Shown in pieces: positions 36,120 to 52,629 of a DNA stretch of 54,252 nucleotides. Every line of letters starts with the position of its first letter. Position 1 is the stretch's first letter. The DNA comes from Clostridiales bacterium (GTDB taxonomy: Bacteria; Bacillota; Clostridia; Lachnospirales; Lachnospiraceae), in the NCBI GenBank assembly GCA_012520815.1, contig JAAYNM010000086.1, positions 1 through 54,252 of the forward strand, given 5' to 3'. The translations under genes were made by a program, and so were the position numbers. The notes under the pieces were generated by a model. That model was not told the origin of the DNA. It saw nothing but the letters and a program-made list of their open reading frames with translations, and searched no databases.

Positions 36120-36124
36120 ACAAA

Positions 36125-36207
36125 TGCGGGAAAAGGGACTTGAACCCTCACTTCCTACGGAAACATGATCCTTAGTCATGCCTGTCTGCCAATTCCAGCA
36201 TTCCCGC
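36125..36207 (-). tRNA. tRNA-Leu (anticodon AAG), CCA not encoded
   Basis: acceptor GCGGGAA/TTCCCGC, anticodon arm CATGA-CTAAGGA-TCATG, long variable arm, T-loop GGTTCAAGTCC. Confidence 0.93.
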
Positions 36208-36353
36208 AAGCCATCGGGTACTCTCGCAACCGACCTAGGTATAATATCAAAACACCATCAAAATGTCAATATGTTTTTTTAATTTTTTAAGACAATTGAC
36301 AAAATATTTTTCCTTGACTATTTGTTTGTATTAAAATATAATAGCGGATGTCT

Positions 36354-36435
36354 GCAGTAGTGGCGCAATTGGTATACGCGCATGTTTCAGGTACATGTGG
36401 AGCAATCCGTGTGGGTTCGAGTCCCATCTACTGCA
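36354..36435 (+). tRNA. tRNA-Leu (anticodon CAG), CCA not encoded
   Basis: acceptor GCAGTAG/CTACTGC, anticodon arm CATGT-TTCAGGT-ACATG, long variable arm, T-loop GGTTCGAGTCC. Confidence 0.93.
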
Positions 36436-36438
36436 TAA

Positions 36439-44842: not shown

Positions 44843-47017
44843 CTAGTTAGCTTTTTTGTATTTTCTTCTATCCATTAAGTACCATAATGCACCTGTTATA
44901 CATACTGAAGAATATCCACCGCAAACGATACCAACAATAAGTGGCATTGCGAATTCTTTTATAGATGTAACACCCAATACATAAAGGGCAGCAACCATAA
45001 CGAATGTTGTAAATGAAGTATATATAGTTCTTGTTAATGTCTGAGTTATACTCTTGTTAACAATTTCCTTTATATCCGTTCTATTTCCATCAATTGCAAT
45101 ATTTTCTCTAATTCTATCAAATATAACAATCGTTGCATTGATCGAGTATCCTAATATGGTAAGTATACATGCAATAAATGTATTACCAACTGTCGTCCAA
45201 GAAATAGCATAGTATGCTAAAACTATTAGAACATCATGAAGCAATGCGATAACAGCACTACTTGCAAAACCTAAATCCTTAAATCTAATAAAGATGTAAA
45301 TCAATATACATATAACTGCTATAACAACTGCCACAATCGCATCGTTTCGCATTTCACCACTAATAGTTGAACTTACGCTTACTTCTTTAAAACTATCTTT
45401 ATCAGCTCCAAAATCTTTAACTAACATTTCTTTTATTGTTGTCATAACTTTTGAATCTAATTCCTTAGTTCTAATAACATATTCATTTGTATCTGTTACT
45501 TCATTACCTACCACATCACTATCACCAGTGATTTCAGTAATCTTGGGAAGAATTTCATCATTAAATTCGTCAATAGAATATTTCTTATCAAATTCAACTG
45601 TAGTTGATAGACCACCCTGGAATTCAACACTGTAGTTTAATGCGTTTTCTCTATCACCTATCTTACCTGTTGAACTAAGAGCCATAGTCACAAGACCAGC
45701 TAAAATTGCAATGCTTGATGCAATAAAGAATATTGTCTTTTTGCCAAGGAAATTAATTGTCTTTCTTTCCTTGTAAACACCATACATTCCAATCTTGTCA
45801 CATCCCATATGATACATTAAGTAGAGGATTCCTCTAGTAATTACCATTGCTGTAAACATTGAAAGAACTATACCAATTGCAAGGGTTTGCGCAAATCCCT
45901 GTACAGGGCCCGTTCCTCTCCACATAAGTACAAGTGCCGCAATAAATGTTGTTACATTACCATCAACAATAGCTGATGCCGCCTTCTTAAATCCAATCTT
46001 CGTAGAATCCTTAACCGACTTTCCTGTTGCAAGTTCTTCTTTGATTCTGGCAAAAACGATGACGTTTGCATCAACTGCCATACCAATAGATAAAATAATA
46101 CCTGCAATACCTGGAAGGGTAAGTGTCATATCAAATCCATTAAGTGCTAATAAATCTAATGCTACATATAAAATAAGTGCGATTGATGCAGCAACACCAG
46201 GAATTCTATAAACAAAAATCATATATACACAAACTATAAGTAAACCAACTAAACCAGCAAACAAACTTGTTGAGATGGCATCTTTTCCTAGCTTTGCGCC
46301 TACAACCTTGGATGTAAGTTCTTTTAATTCAACCTTAAGAGAACCTATTCTAATAACTGATGCAAGTTTCTCAGCTTCTTCATAAGAATCCATACCATCA
46401 ATTTGAGCTGTACCACCTGTAATTGTGGTCTGAACTGTTGGATAACTTACTATTTCTCCATCATACACGATGTATATTGTTTTTCCAACAAATTGTGCTG
46501 TGGCTTCTGCAAAAATTTTAGAACCCTGTTCTGTAAATTCAAGTGAAACAACATTTTTTGATGAATTATTACTATCTGTTACTACACCTGGTTGTGCATC
46601 TGCAATGTCAGCTCCTGTAAGCCATACTTTTTCATTATCTGTGCCATAGTCAGTTACAAACTGTAAAGCACCTGGCTTACCTAATGTTTCTAAAACTTCT
46701 TTTGCATCATCAGCACCTGGTATATCTACAGTAACTCTGTTGTTACCCTCCTGATATACATCTGATTCAGCAGCTAATTCATTTGCACGAAGCTGAAGCT
46801 TGTACACTGTATCAGACATATCCTCTGCTGATGGAACGTCTCCTACTGCCTCATAAGTAACACTAACACCGCCCTCAAGATCTAGTCCAAGTACAATGTT
46901 TTGTGCACTTCCTTTGTTCATTCCATTAATTGTAATACCGTATCTTGTAAGAAGGCATAAGCCAGCGATTACAGCTATACAAAGAATAAACAAAATACTA
47001 CTCTTTAATTTTTTCAT
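44843..47017 (-). CDS. secDF: fused protein translocase SecD/SecF
   Basis: LGLDLEGGVSVTYE, SecD and SecF TM modules in one 724-aa ORF. Confidence 0.95.
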   Translation of the reverse strand: MKKLKSSILFILCIAVIAGLCLLTRYGITINGMNKGSAQNIVLGLDLEGGVSVTYEAVGDVPSAEDMSDTVYKLQLRANELAAESDVYQEGNNRVTVDIPGADDAKEVLETLGKPGALQFVTDYGTDNEKVWLTGADIADAQPGVVTDSNNSSKNVVSLEFTEQGSKIFAEATAQFVGKTIYIVYDGEIVSYPTVQTTITGGTAQIDGMDSYEEAEKLASVIRIGSLKVELKELTSKVVGAKLGKDAISTSLFAGLVGLLIVCVYMIFVYRIPGVAASIALILYVALDLLALNGFDMTLTLPGIAGIILSIGMAVDANVIVFARIKEELATGKSVKDSTKIGFKKAASAIVDGNVTTFIAALVLMWRGTGPVQGFAQTLAIGIVLSMFTAMVITRGILYLMYHMGCDKIGMYGVYKERKTINFLGKKTIFFIASSIAILAGLVTMALSSTGKIGDRENALNYSVEFQGGLSTTVEFDKKYSIDEFNDEILPKITEITGDSDVVGNEVTDTNEYVIRTKELDSKVMTTIKEMLVKDFGADKDSFKEVSVSSTISGEMRNDAIVAVVIAVICILIYIFIRFKDLGFASSAVIALLHDVLIVLAYYAISWTTVGNTFIACILTILGYSINATIVIFDRIRENIAIDGNRTDIKEIVNKSITQTLTRTIYTSFTTFVMVAALYVLGVTSIKEFAMPLIVGIVCGGYSSVCITGALWYLMDRRKYKKAN

Positions 47018-47033: not shown

Positions 47034-48431
47034 CTAATCTGCTAAAGCAGCCTTTATCATAATGGCGCACTCGATACGTTTTCTTTGCATCTCACAACCA
47101 ATATCATATGCATTTGTAATATCACCGTGGAAATTGAATGCATTAGCGGCACAACCACCACTGCAATAATATCTTGCAAAACATTCTTTGCACTTCGGTT
47201 TAGCATATACATTACACATTTTAAACTCATCAACTATGTCTGTTGCCTTAATTCCTTCATCTACATTGCCTAGTAGGAACTTTTCATTACCAACAAATTG
47301 ATGACAAGGATAAAAATCACCCCAAGGAGTAACCGCTAAATATTCTGTTCCTGAACCGCATCCAGAAAGTCTTTTTGCGACACATGGTCCTTGTTCTAAA
47401 TCAATCATAAAGTGGAAAAAGTTAAATCCATTACCTTCTTTTTGACGCTTTATGTATTCAACTGCAAGATTATCGTATTCTTCCATAATTTTTGGAAGAT
47501 CTTCTTCCTTAATTGCATACTCTTCATAATCATCACCTACCACAGGCTCGATTGACATATGCTTAAATCCCAAATCTGCAAAGTGCTTTACATCCTCTGA
47601 AAAATCAAGATTCTGGCGGGTAAATGTACCTCGTACATAATAACTTTTGTCGCCACGACTCTCGGCAAATTTTTGAAATTTAGGAACTATTAATTCATAG
47701 CTTCCACGACCGTTTCTAAATGGTCTGTTGGCATCGTTAATCTCTTGTCTTCCATCCAGGCTTAGAACAACATTCGCCATTTCTTTATTACAAAATTCCA
47801 TAATTTCATCATTTAGTAATACACCATTTGTAGTAAGCGTAAATCTAAATTTCTTATTGAGTTTAGTCTCCATAGATCTTCCATATTCAACTAGCTGTTT
47901 TACAACATCCCAGTTCATAAGTGGTTCTCCACCAAAAAAATCCACTTCCAGATTCACTCTATTGCCTGAGTTTGATATAAGAAAATCTAAAGCTTTCTTT
48001 CCTACTTCATAGCTCATCAATGCTCTGCGGCCATGATATTCGCCCTCTTCGGCAAAACAATACTTACAAGCCAGATTGCAATCGTGAGCAATATGCAAGC
48101 ACATAGCTTTAACTACTGTTTTTCGACTTTTAAAATCTGTTATATATTTTTCATAAATATCTTCAGTAAATAATACTTCATTGTTAGCTAACTGATTAGT
48201 TTCAGCAATTGCCTCTTCTAATTCTTCTCTGCTATAGTTACTCTCAAGTCTGCTATATATATAATCCTTAATTTCATTCTCGGATTTTTTTTCGTTTAAT
48301 GCTTCTTCGTACAGAGGAATTACATCATACATAACATCATCTACTACATGTACAGAGCCGCTGTTGACATCCATAACGATATTATATCCATTATTTTTAT
48401 ATCTGTGTATCACAGCTATTTCTCCTTTCAA
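47034..48431 (-). CDS. scfB: radical SAM/SPASM SCIFF peptide maturase
   Basis: CNLACKYCFAEEGEYHGRRALMS; C-terminal Cys-rich SPASM; adjacent SCIFF precursor. Confidence 0.95.
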   Translation of the reverse strand: MKGEIAVIHRYKNNGYNIVMDVNSGSVHVVDDVMYDVIPLYEEALNEKKSENEIKDYIYSRLESNYSREELEEAIAETNQLANNEVLFTEDIYEKYITDFKSRKTVVKAMCLHIAHDCNLACKYCFAEEGEYHGRRALMSYEVGKKALDFLISNSGNRVNLEVDFFGGEPLMNWDVVKQLVEYGRSMETKLNKKFRFTLTTNGVLLNDEIMEFCNKEMANVVLSLDGRQEINDANRPFRNGRGSYELIVPKFQKFAESRGDKSYYVRGTFTRQNLDFSEDVKHFADLGFKHMSIEPVVGDDYEEYAIKEEDLPKIMEEYDNLAVEYIKRQKEGNGFNFFHFMIDLEQGPCVAKRLSGCGSGTEYLAVTPWGDFYPCHQFVGNEKFLLGNVDEGIKATDIVDEFKMCNVYAKPKCKECFARYYCSGGCAANAFNFHGDITNAYDIGCEMQRKRIECAIMIKAALAD

Positions 48432-48488
48432 ATACCACTTAGGCAGCGGATAATCCGCTGCCTAGTGTGAAATAGTTAATTTTAACTA

Positions 48489-48632
48489 TTATTTGTTGTT
48501 TTCACAGCTCTGATTTCCAACTGTACAAGATGTCTTGCAAGCTGACTGGCAAGATGTCTGGCATTCACCACAACCACCTTTAGCCATTGTATTCTTCAAA
48601 GTCTTTGTACTTAAGGTCTTGACATGCTTCAT
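48489..48632 (-). CDS. scfA: SCIFF (six cysteines in forty-five) ranthipeptide precursor
   Basis: MKHVKTLSTKTLKNTMAKGGCGECQTSCQSACKTSCTVGNQSCENNK*, aaggagg SD; too short for the ORF track. Confidence 0.95.
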   Translation of the reverse strand: MKHVKTLSTKTLKNTMAKGGCGECQTSCQSACKTSCTVGNQSCENNK

Positions 48633-48665
48633 GATTAATCCTCCTTACATAAAATAACTCATTGT

Positions 48666-48694
48666 ATTGTATCACAACATGGACACAATTTCAA
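48666..48694 (-). promoter_or_regulatory. scfA promoter TTGAAA-N17-TACAAT
   Basis: minus-strand reading upstream of scfA. Confidence 0.6.
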
Positions 48695-48737: not shown

Positions 48738-50156
48738 TTAAAAAATCACCCTTATTGTAGTGCCTTCGCCTAATTTACTTTCCATTTCTATTGAAGCCTT
48801 ATGAAATAAAACTCCGTGCTTTACTATGGATAAACCAAGTCCTGTTCCACCAATAGATCGTGAATGGCTTTTATCAACTCTATAAAACCTTTCAAAAACT
48901 CTTTTTTGATCTGCTTCATCTATTCCGATTCCAGTATCCCTAATCTGAACTAATTTCTTTCCATTATCATCATATACCCGTATATATACTTTTCCTCCGT
49001 CACAATTATATTTAATCGCATTCTCAACGAGATTATAAAGAATCTCATCAACAATATATTCCTCGCCACGAATTACCGTATTTTTACCGGTTAGGTCCAC
49101 TGTTACATTTCTTTTCTGAGATGAGAATTTTAACCTTTCCACAACACTTTTTGCAACATTTAATAAATCCACATCCGTCCATTCTACTGTAGTTCCCTCT
49201 TCATCTAATCTAGATATCTTAATAATATCCTCAATTAGAGTAGTCATCCTCGTAGCCTCTGCGTAAATAATCTCCGAAAATCTCGTTAAATCAGCATCCT
49301 TTACCATTCCTGACTTCATAAGTTCTGCATATCCCGTTATGGATGTTAATGGTGTTTTTAGCTCGTGGGATACATTTGCCGAAAATTCTCTTCTCATTTG
49401 TTCACGAGATTCATTTTCTGTAATAGTCTGTTCCCTTATAAATTCATTCTGTTTTACAATTTTCTTCAATAGTGGACGTATTTCCTCGTATACGTGATTG
49501 TTTTCAGGATTTTCTAAATTCAAATTATTTATAGGATTTACAATTTTTTTAACTGTAAAATATGAAATAATATCTCCGATTATAAAAACTATAATTCCTA
49601 TAACAAAAATATACAAAACAACATTTAATATTGTTACTAATATAGATTCCATATCAGTAGCAACCCTAAGTATTGAACCATCCTTAAGTAACACAGCATA
49701 ATAAAATGTTTTTACAGATAGGGTGTCTGATTTTCTCTCATCAAAACCCTCACCATCCTTTATAGCCTCCGCTACCTCTTTTCTATTCAAATGATTGTTC
49801 ATTTTTTCAATATCAGCCTCAGAGTCAAAAATAGCATCTCCCTGGGAATTAATCAGCGTAATTCTATTTTCGTTATTAGCCTCTACTGAGTTTAAATAAT
49901 CCATCCCATATAACTCTACTGCTGTTTTTATATATCCTGTTTCAGAAGTTATACTGTCCTTTATACTATTTTCATATTGCTTATAGAGGAATACTGTACA
50001 TAAAAAAGCAGTTAAAAAAATAGCCAGTGCTACAGCCTGGCTCATTTTTCTAAACATCATATTTTTGATAGTAAGTTTTTTGGGCTTATTAACAACCTCA
50101 TATGTTATGTTATTTTGATAATTGTCGTTGTCTCTATTTTTCACTATCAGCACCAT
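48738..50156 (-). CDS. sensor histidine kinase, PhoR-like
   Basis: FSANVSHELKTPLTSITGYAELM; GGTGLGLSIVKH. Confidence 0.92.
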   Translation of the reverse strand: MVLIVKNRDNDNYQNNITYEVVNKPKKLTIKNMMFRKMSQAVALAIFLTAFLCTVFLYKQYENSIKDSITSETGYIKTAVELYGMDYLNSVEANNENRITLINSQGDAIFDSEADIEKMNNHLNRKEVAEAIKDGEGFDERKSDTLSVKTFYYAVLLKDGSILRVATDMESILVTILNVVLYIFVIGIIVFIIGDIISYFTVKKIVNPINNLNLENPENNHVYEEIRPLLKKIVKQNEFIREQTITENESREQMRREFSANVSHELKTPLTSITGYAELMKSGMVKDADLTRFSEIIYAEATRMTTLIEDIIKISRLDEEGTTVEWTDVDLLNVAKSVVERLKFSSQKRNVTVDLTGKNTVIRGEEYIVDEILYNLVENAIKYNCDGGKVYIRVYDDNGKKLVQIRDTGIGIDEADQKRVFERFYRVDKSHSRSIGGTGLGLSIVKHGVLFHKASIEMESKLGEGTTIRVIF

Positions 50157-50835
50157 CCTCGCTTATCTTATATCCGATTCCGCGAATTGTATTTATATAG
50201 TTGCCACATTCTCCTAATTTCTGTCTTAAAGTCCTAACATGAACATCTACAGTTCTAGTCTCTCCATCAAAGTTGTATCCCCAGATAGATTCTAATATCT
50301 TATCTCTTGTTAAAACCATATTTTTATTTTCAAATAATAAAACCAATAGTTCAAACTCCTTTAGGGTTAAGACTACCTTAGTACCTGCTGCTTTTACAAT
50401 ATGCTTATCTACATTTACATACAAATCACCTACCGTGAATTCTTTACATGTATTTGTAATCATTTTTTGGTTCCCTACTCTTCTAAGCAAGGCATTAACT
50501 CTTGCCACCAATTCCATTATTCCAAATGGCTTTGGCACATAGTCATCGGCGCCCATATTGAGCCCTGATACTTTATCATACTCACTACCTTTAGCCGTAA
50601 GCATAATAACAGGCAACCCTTGAATCTTGCTGTTTGAACGAATTTTTTTTAATATACTTAATCCATCTTCGTCTGGAAGCATAATATCAAGCAAAACAAT
50701 GTCTGGAGTTGCTTCCTCCATCGCCCTCCAAAATGCACCTGCATTTTCAAAGCCTTTTGCCTCCATATTCATCTTGTTAAATGTGTACTCTACAAGCTGT
50801 CGGATATTACCGTCATCCTCTACAATATAAACCAT
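50134..50835 (-). CDS. OmpR/PhoB-family response regulator
   Basis: LLDIMLPDEDGLSILKKIR; C-terminal winged helix TRTVDVHVRTLRQKL. Confidence 0.94.
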   Translation of the reverse strand: MVYIVEDDGNIRQLVEYTFNKMNMEAKGFENAGAFWRAMEEATPDIVLLDIMLPDEDGLSILKKIRSNSKIQGLPVIMLTAKGSEYDKVSGLNMGADDYVPKPFGIMELVARVNALLRRVGNQKMITNTCKEFTVGDLYVNVDKHIVKAAGTKVVLTLKEFELLVLLFENKNMVLTRDKILESIWGYNFDGETRTVDVHVRTLRQKLGECGNYINTIRGIGYKISEDGADSEK

Positions 50836-50856
50836 AATTGTCTCTCATTTCTATGA

Positions 50857-52629
50857 TTACATCTTAGGCAAAATATATTTTTCTTTAAAGAGATTATATT
50901 TTTCCTTAAATTCTGCATTATCATGTTTAACATAATCGAGATATTCGTGTGTTTCATATTCATTTTCATCTACTTGAATAAGACATACAGCAACATTAGA
51001 GCAATGATCCGAAATTCTCTCAAAGTTTGTTGTTATATCAGAGAAAATAAAACCTAGTTCAATTGTACACTTATTTTCTGCAAGTCTTCTTATATGACGA
51101 TTTTTGAGTTCATCACTTAGATTATCAATAACCTCTTCCATTGGTTCAATAATACTTGCCACAACCATATCTTTTTCTTCAAAAACTACAACGGTGGACT
51201 CTACGATGTCTCTAATCGCTTTTGAAAAAACTTTTAATTCTTTATTTGCTTCTTCTGAAAAAACAAGCTTTTTCTCATGCATCTCTTTGGATGCTGCTAA
51301 AAGGTTCACAGCATGATCTGCAATTCTTTCAAAATCTCCGATACAGTGTAGAAGTTCTGTTAAAACTCTACTGTCGCTTTCCGAAAGATTACGACTACTT
51401 ATTTTAACAAGATAAGTTCCAATGCGATCTTCATACTTGTCCACACGATTTTCAAGCTCTACTACATCCTTGGCTATTTCTTCATCGTAGTTCTCAAGTA
51501 AAGACATCGCCTTAAACAGACATTCTTTTGAATGATAAGCCATACTTATTGTAACTTTTCTAGCTTGATCTATAGCATATGATGGTTGGTCTAAGAAACG
51601 TAAATCTAATGCTCTGAAATCATTATCAACTTTTTTAGCTTTTTCATCATCTTTGTCATTTCTAATTGTAAGTCTTGCAAGTTTCTCAAGACCTTTTGTA
51701 AATGGCAGTAATAACAGTGTAGCTCCGATATTAAAAGTACTGTGAAGGATAGCTATATCAGCTGGACTAACAACATCATCTAAAAATGCAAAATCAATAA
51801 ATGATGTCAAACTATAAAATCCTATCATAAATATGGCTACACCCATAAGATTAAAATACAAATGAACTAATGCTGTTCTCTTAGCATTTTTACTGGCTCC
51901 GATACTAGATATCATCGCTGTCACACAAGTTCCAATATTTTGACCTAAAACTATTGGAAAAACCATAGAATAGTTTAAAGAACCAGTAACGCATAATGCC
52001 TGTAATATACCTACAGATGCAGATGAACTTTGTATAATTGCAGTAAGTAACGCTCCCGCAACTACACCAAGTACAGGATTTGTAAACATTGTAAGCAAGC
52101 TAGTAAATGATGCATTATTAGCTAGAGGCTTTACAGCTGCAGACATAGTCTCCATACCAAACATAAGAATTGCAAATCCAATTAAAATATTACCTACATC
52201 CTTCATTCTCTCTTTTTTTGAGAACATAATCATTATAATACCGATAATTGCAAATATAGGTGAAAATGACGAAGGCTTTAATAGCTGTATTAATGTACTA
52301 TCGCTCTCAATTCCAGATAAAGATAATATCCATGATGTAGCTGTAGTTCCTATGTTAGCACCCATAATAATACTAATAGCTTGAGTAAGCTTCATTATGC
52401 CTGAATTAACGAATCCAACTACCATAACTGTAGTTGCCGAAGATGACTGAATAGCGGCTGTTACTACAGCTCCTAACAAAACACCTTTAATTTTACTAGA
52501 AGTAAGTTTTTCTAAAATCTTTTCTAATCTTCCGCCTGAAAGTTTTGCTAAACCATCACCAAGTGCATTCATTCCATATAAGAATAATGCTAAACCTCCA
52601 AACATAGTTAATACGCTAAAAATGTCCAT
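50857..52629 (-). CDS. Na/Pi cotransporter (NptA/PhoU-domain)
   Basis: AAIQSSSATTVMVVGFVNSGIM and AIIQSSSASVGILQALC QSSS repeats; C-terminal PhoU-like helices. Confidence 0.95.
   Translation of the reverse strand: MDIFSVLTMFGGLALFLYGMNALGDGLAKLSGGRLEKILEKLTSSKIKGVLLGAVVTAAIQSSSATTVMVVGFVNSGIMKLTQAISIIMGANIGTTATSWILSLSGIESDSTLIQLLKPSSFSPIFAIIGIIMIMFSKKERMKDVGNILIGFAILMFGMETMSAAVKPLANNASFTSLLTMFTNPVLGVVAGALLTAIIQSSSASVGILQALCVTGSLNYSMVFPIVLGQNIGTCVTAMISSIGASKNAKRTALVHLYFNLMGVAIFMIGFYSLTSFIDFAFLDDVVSPADIAILHSTFNIGATLLLLPFTKGLEKLARLTIRNDKDDEKAKKVDNDFRALDLRFLDQPSYAIDQARKVTISMAYHSKECLFKAMSLLENYDEEIAKDVVELENRVDKYEDRIGTYLVKISSRNLSESDSRVLTELLHCIGDFERIADHAVNLLAASKEMHEKKLVFSEEANKELKVFSKAIRDIVESTVVVFEEKDMVVASIIEPMEEVIDNLSDELKNRHIRRLAENKCTIELGFIFSDITTNFERISDHCSNVAVCLIQVDENEYETHEYLDYVKHDNAEFKEKYNLFKEKYILPKM

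Follow-up and report, generated by a model that had tools for sequence, protein, structure and literature searches.

The closest described counterpart of the locus analyzed here is the SCIFF ranthipeptide of Clostridium thermocellum, CteA, in which the maturase joins Cys32 to Thr34 via a gamma-thioether; earlier CteA work had put the acceptor at Thr37, a discrepancy that has been called unclear (PMC8326336). SCIFF genes are easily missed in structural annotation, yet they are readily recognized by the model TIGR03973 (PMC5300114), with which mining surveys detect them routinely (PMC13289728), and the co-occurrence of precursor and maturase is expected from the literature (PMC5300114). The ubiquity of SCIFF speaks against an antimicrobial role (PMC8326336), and in C. 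beijerinckii disruption of the precursor and maturase genes decreased sporulation gene expression and increased that of agr, according to the account of Chen et al. 2020 given in PMC8102284. By analogy with the C. beijerinckii work, the downstream role of SCIFF would be one in signaling.

Two kinds of described RNA hairpin are also relevant to this locus. Stabilizer stem-loops that act in selective RNA processing and stabilization (SRPS) are known in Clostridium operons (PMC8219983, PMC4423207); the sequence rule for a stabilizer is a stable intra-operonic stem with no more than 5 U among the 10 nt that follow it and poly(U) of no more than 3 (PMC8219983); a processing site and a difference in stability are further parts of the full definition. 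Intrinsic termination in B. subtilis takes place 7-9 nt past the hairpin, and the weak terminators that depend on NusA/NusG carry interruptions in the distal part of the U-tract (PMC8060035).

The window contains a typical SCIFF precursor gene

We analyzed a 54,252-nt stretch of DNA from a member of the Lachnospiraceae (the window), in which an original prediction had placed an unannotated SCIFF precursor gene, scfA, next to the gene for a radical SAM/SPASM maturase (Table 1). The 47-codon ORF was present exactly as claimed in sequence (MKHVKTLSTKTLKNTMAKGGCGECQTSCQSACKTSCTVGNQSCENNK) and in its six Cys within 47 residues, and it lies on the minus strand, a detail that the prediction had left out. 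The search with the SCIFF family model that had been proposed as a check returned a match of 84 bits to TIGR03973 (cut-off 50), and PF13165 matched with 86 bits (cut-off 27). Together with the bona fide ScfB encoded next to it and its status as the sole SCIFF of the genome (one copy), these scores far above the cut-offs of both curated models bear out the predicted identity of the peptide. In addition, the Cys spacing of ScfA is that of all 146 relatives examined, across which the SCIFF core is almost invariant. An ORF of only 47 codons beside a radical SAM gene might be a chance or decayed reading frame, but the scores against two curated SCIFF models, the conservation of the scfA promoter and Shine-Dalgarno sequence and the near invariance of the core leave this explanation practically no credence, and a pseudogene or chance ORF was rejected on the strength of the model scores and conservation. 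The identification of this ORF as a SCIFF precursor gene, taken by itself, is all but certain, and its short length is a plausible reason for it to be missed.

Table 1. Features of the scfA-scfB locus, with coordinates in the window.
Feature	Coordinates	Strand	Basis
scfA, 47-aa SCIFF ranthipeptide precursor, Cys21/24/28/32/36/43	48489..48632	-	TIGR03973 + PF13165
scfA promoter, TTGAAA-N17-TACAAT, TG before -10	48666..48694	-	sequence scan and conservation in relatives
scfA Shine-Dalgarno AAGGAGG, 7 nt before ATG	48640..48646	-	read from sequence
scfA-scfB spacer hairpin, 12-nt arms TAGGCAGCGGAT / ATCCGCTGCCTA, U-poor tail	48440..48464	-	folding; relatives; compensatory changes
scfB, radical SAM/SPASM SCIFF maturase, GTG start favored over TTG 48431	47034..48413	-	TIGR03974; CteB homology; start from homologues
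secDF, conserved neighbor downstream of scfB	44843..47017	-	TIGR01129 + TIGR00966 over cut-off

Compared with the SCIFF family as defined by these models and exemplified by CteA, ScfA has the same length, the same six-Cys spacing and the invariant core CGECQTSCQSACKTSC, and it shows no difference that matters; its N-terminal part is variable, as it is throughout the family. Cys32 and both candidate acceptors, Thr34 and Thr37, are at the positions named in PMC8326336.

The predicted signals upstream of scfA were also recovered, the Shine-Dalgarno sequence directly and the promoter by comparison. A Shine-Dalgarno-like site precedes scfA in 90 of 96 relatives. Promoter-like matches in the AT-rich 2.5-kb region numbered 14 against 13.4 expected, so that a single match is at chance level; the promoter assignment holds because it is conserved among relatives beyond what shuffled sequences give, matches of at least 10/12 being found upstream of scfA in 42 of 96 non-redundant relatives compared with 4.1 in dinucleotide shuffles. 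In most genus-mates, an extended -10 element and a TTG -35 have been retained, and their distance from the start is similar. We propose that scfA would form a short transcription unit, with efficient translation and a sigma-A-type promoter of its own.

The maturase gene and the order of genes at the locus

The claim that a radical SAM/SPASM maturase adjoins scfA proved correct, with ScfB scoring 797 bits against TIGR03974 (cut-off 425) and giving a full-length match of 611 bits to the CteB structure (PDB 5wgg/5why; the entry title of 5wgg itself reads radical SAM domain protein, and we take this protein to be CteB). The radical SAM CX3CX2C motif of ScfB reads CNLACKYC, PF04055 scores 51.4 bits, and the SPASM model PF13186 scores 20.3 bits, slightly below its cut-off of 21.5. 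The motif and the gene order are the same as those of ScfB/CteB, from which the window protein shows only ordinary sequence divergence.

The start of scfB is most likely GTG 48413, because TTG 48431, the start given in the ORF list, overlaps the scfB Shine-Dalgarno sequence (TTGAAAGGAG) and because ScfB homologues begin with [MVL][IV]H(Q/R)YKNNGYNIV, which corresponds to GTG 48413 in the window. The scfA-scfB spacer then measures 75 nt; the 57 nt that the original prediction had put between scfA and the maturase were counted from TTG 48431 and have to be revised.

Examination of 146 SCIFF loci placed scfB immediately downstream of the precursor gene in 143; it was not found in L012, L025 and L029, for which just ~1.45-1.49 kb of downstream sequence was available and which were not scored as absences. 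Past scfB the order is secDF, then RecJ, and SecDF follows scfB in 69 of the 76 related loci with enough sequence.

Distribution and surroundings of the SCIFF system

The system had been predicted to be near-universal in Clostridia, in agreement with the finding of SCIFF in 245 of 291 genomes of the class; the corresponding numbers are 140 of 150 for the family and 8 of 8 for the genus. The related loci assign the window to the Lachnospiraceae. Gain or loss appears to affect precursor and maturase jointly, because the two genes are so regularly adjacent and because none of the 22 SCIFF-less genomes encodes a ScfB over the cut-off. Six near-complete genomes of the family (G374, G376, G405, G413, G416 and G430) have neither SCIFF nor a ScfB over the cut-off and, as natural losses within the Lachnospiraceae, are useful for probing the purpose of the system. 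A genome with an estimated contamination of 6% (G425) has three SCIFF copies on separate contigs (C22, C59 and C78), which are probably mixed strains rather than paralogues.

Directly upstream of scfA and on the same strand, genes for a PhoR-like histidine kinase, a PhoB-like regulator and a Na/Pi cotransporter-PhoU fusion lie in tandem (48738-52629). Related same-strand genes for the histidine kinase, the response regulator and the Na/Pi protein were present upstream of scfA in 5, 2 and 3 of 68 loci, respectively, and these phosphate-type two-component and Na/Pi-PhoU genes were rejected as a part of the SCIFF system, since, at the sensitivity of this comparison, the neighborhood showed no conservation. 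The content of the window adds nothing to the biological role described from C. beijerinckii. Elsewhere in the window, two divergent tRNA-Leu genes with anticodons aag and cag lie ~145 nt apart (36124-36436).

Overall, this is a typical and already well-described SCIFF system, a routine member of its family, and the window scfA is a further example of a clostridial RiPP that is nearly universal. Mild interest attaches only to the element in the scfA-scfB spacer and the variation at position 37 of the peptide, for both of which the comparative results are modestly useful.

A strong hairpin in the scfA-scfB spacer

Folding of the spacer region of the window gave a z of -6.3. The stem of the hairpin is single-copy in the genome, which rules out a dispersed repeat as its origin, and the tail (TAAGTGGTATTT) has 4 U in 10 and no YGTT, unlike that of a genus-mate (L039), which has one. 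Just before this GC hairpin, a perfect inverted repeat composed of A and U only (48471-48490; AATAGTTAA / TTAACTATT, 9 bp) overlaps the scfA stop; by eye, it is not a general feature of the relatives.

The hairpin was compared across 96 non-redundant spacers, comprising the window and related loci that are essentially from Lachnospiraceae. Hairpins at least as stable as -12 kcal/mol were found in 94 of the 96 and a z of -2 or lower in 91, counts that overstate the number of independent events because the sequences are related, and the stems and tails discussed below are those of predicted folds. Control spacers of the same loci had hairpins of the same strength in 34 of 83 tandem and 35 of 74 convergent cases. 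The stem types differ by lineage (GCAGCG, CAGAGCC, CCCCTA, GACCG, GAGAGTG and CCGAGG), and stems of the GCAGCG type show compensatory change at 6 of 12 pairs. In the class-level sample, a strong hairpin was present in 17 of the 24 loci having a spacer. Some other families have plain U-run terminators at this position (L006, L008 and L022), and in family f5 the two genes sometimes abut or overlap and leave no spacer (L005, L023, L150, L152 and L156).

The tails of the scfA-scfB hairpins are unusual in being U-poor, at least 6 U in eight being found in 7% of the strong hairpins compared with 24% of the tandem controls. YGTT lies within +4 to +16 in 43 of 94 tails, compared with 15.2 +/- 3.4 for shuffled sequences; counted from the last G-C pair, its position peaks at +8/+9. 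A looser form, YGTK at +6 to +10, recurs with several unrelated stems. No Rfam family matched either the spacer or the leader, although hits with E up to 1 were considered. The literature searched, which included only a minority of subscription journals, contained no description of the scfA-scfB element and no partial terminator in a RiPP precursor operon, a negative result that does not amount to proof of novelty.

Possible functions of the spacer hairpin

The hairpin resembles the Clostridium SRPS stem-loops, stabilizers and leaky terminators alike, in that it is a GC hairpin within an operon, has a U-tract that is interrupted or poor (PMC8219983, PMC4423207) and sits between genes that are likely needed in unequal amounts; the account of SRPS stem-loops in PMC8219983 makes no mention of "SCIFF" or "radical SAM". 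Across relatives, its tails share with the factor-stimulated weak terminators of B. subtilis both the 7-9 nt distance and the interrupted U-tract (PMC8060035). We consider it likely that the locus as a whole is a standard clostridial SCIFF locus with a dosage-setting hairpin, which would raise the level of the precursor transcript above that of the maturase (and SecDF) transcript. The hairpin is probably a leaky terminator, a 3' stabilizer or both; in either role, the predicted outcome is the same, namely precursor in excess of enzyme.

On the mechanism, the features of the predicted folds leave us evenly divided over leaky termination, the simplest interpretation, according to which the hairpin across relatives would be a leaky intrinsic terminator, with an interrupted U-tract and a pause-like Y/G step 8-9 nt past the stem. 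In terms of intrinsic-terminator features, the window copy has the GC hairpin and a poor U-tract, the pause-like +8/+9 step being a feature of its relatives, and given the U content of its tail and the missing YGTT, termination at the window copy may be weak. The scfA-scfB transcript could instead be cut in the spacer and the upstream scfA piece protected at its 3' end by the hairpin, as in SRPS, an explanation that is possible although we lean against it. The U-poor tails are what a stabilizer would have, and the rules of PMC8219983, in simplified use, class 53 of the 94 hairpins as stabilizers, including that of the window, which agrees with the sequence part of the SRPS definition, with 33 intermediate and 8 terminators. 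On the other hand, the YGTT peak falls at the distance at which RNA polymerase pauses or releases the transcript, which is unexpected for a pure stabilizer, and the plain U-run terminators of other families (see above) occupy the same place. With the weaker tail of the window copy, protection of the 3' end of the upstream RNA may contribute more there. Finally, strong hairpins are common in the spacers of these genomes (41-47% of the other spacers in the same loci), and the scfA-scfB hairpin might have no specific role; this is improbable in view of its presence in 98% of scfA-scfB spacers, of the turnover of the stem sequence while position and tail pattern are kept, and of a single-copy stem that is no dispersed repeat.

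Returning to leaky termination, we tentatively suggest, with somewhat less than even confidence, that the hairpin, the interrupted U-tract and the Y/G pause step together form a conserved, fast-evolving and undescribed terminator, tuned to be leaky, that would fix the precursor:maturase ratio across Lachnospiraceae and much of Clostridia. For a SCIFF system with no settled biological role, the spacer hairpin offers a concrete and testable handle on the dosage of precursor and maturase.

Candidate acceptors of the predicted Cys32 cross-link

As a radical SAM/SPASM enzyme, ScfB would install a non-alpha thioether on ScfA, and by analogy with CteA the predicted link is most likely that from Cys32 to Thr34. 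All 146 SCIFFs have Thr at residue 34; at residue 37, Thr is found in 142 of them and Gly in the other 4. When 27 further units were added, mainly from the Gly37-rich family and a few of them overlapping the first 146 by genome neighborhood, Thr34 was present in 173 of 173 and Gly37 in 23 of 173 (two of the added loci hold tandem units). Thr37 therefore is not a universal acceptor, and Thr34 can be. The contrast between an invariant residue 34 and Thr or Gly at 37 bears on the published dispute over the acceptor threonine of Cys32; the invariance favors Thr34, in a supportive way only, as Thr34 sits in an almost wholly invariant block.

The Gly37 peptides have SCGVANQ in place of SCTVGNQ or SCTVANQ, with Thr34 kept, and occur at loci of family f5 (e.g., L005, L010, L023 and L150-L170) and also at L031. 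In two cases, L151 (G483 C7:81180-81449) and L179 (G411 C100:26764-27024), a single ORF of ~97-99 codons upstream of scfB contains two complete six-Cys units, both with Gly37, and such a double SCIFF is possibly a single precursor that yields two modified cores.
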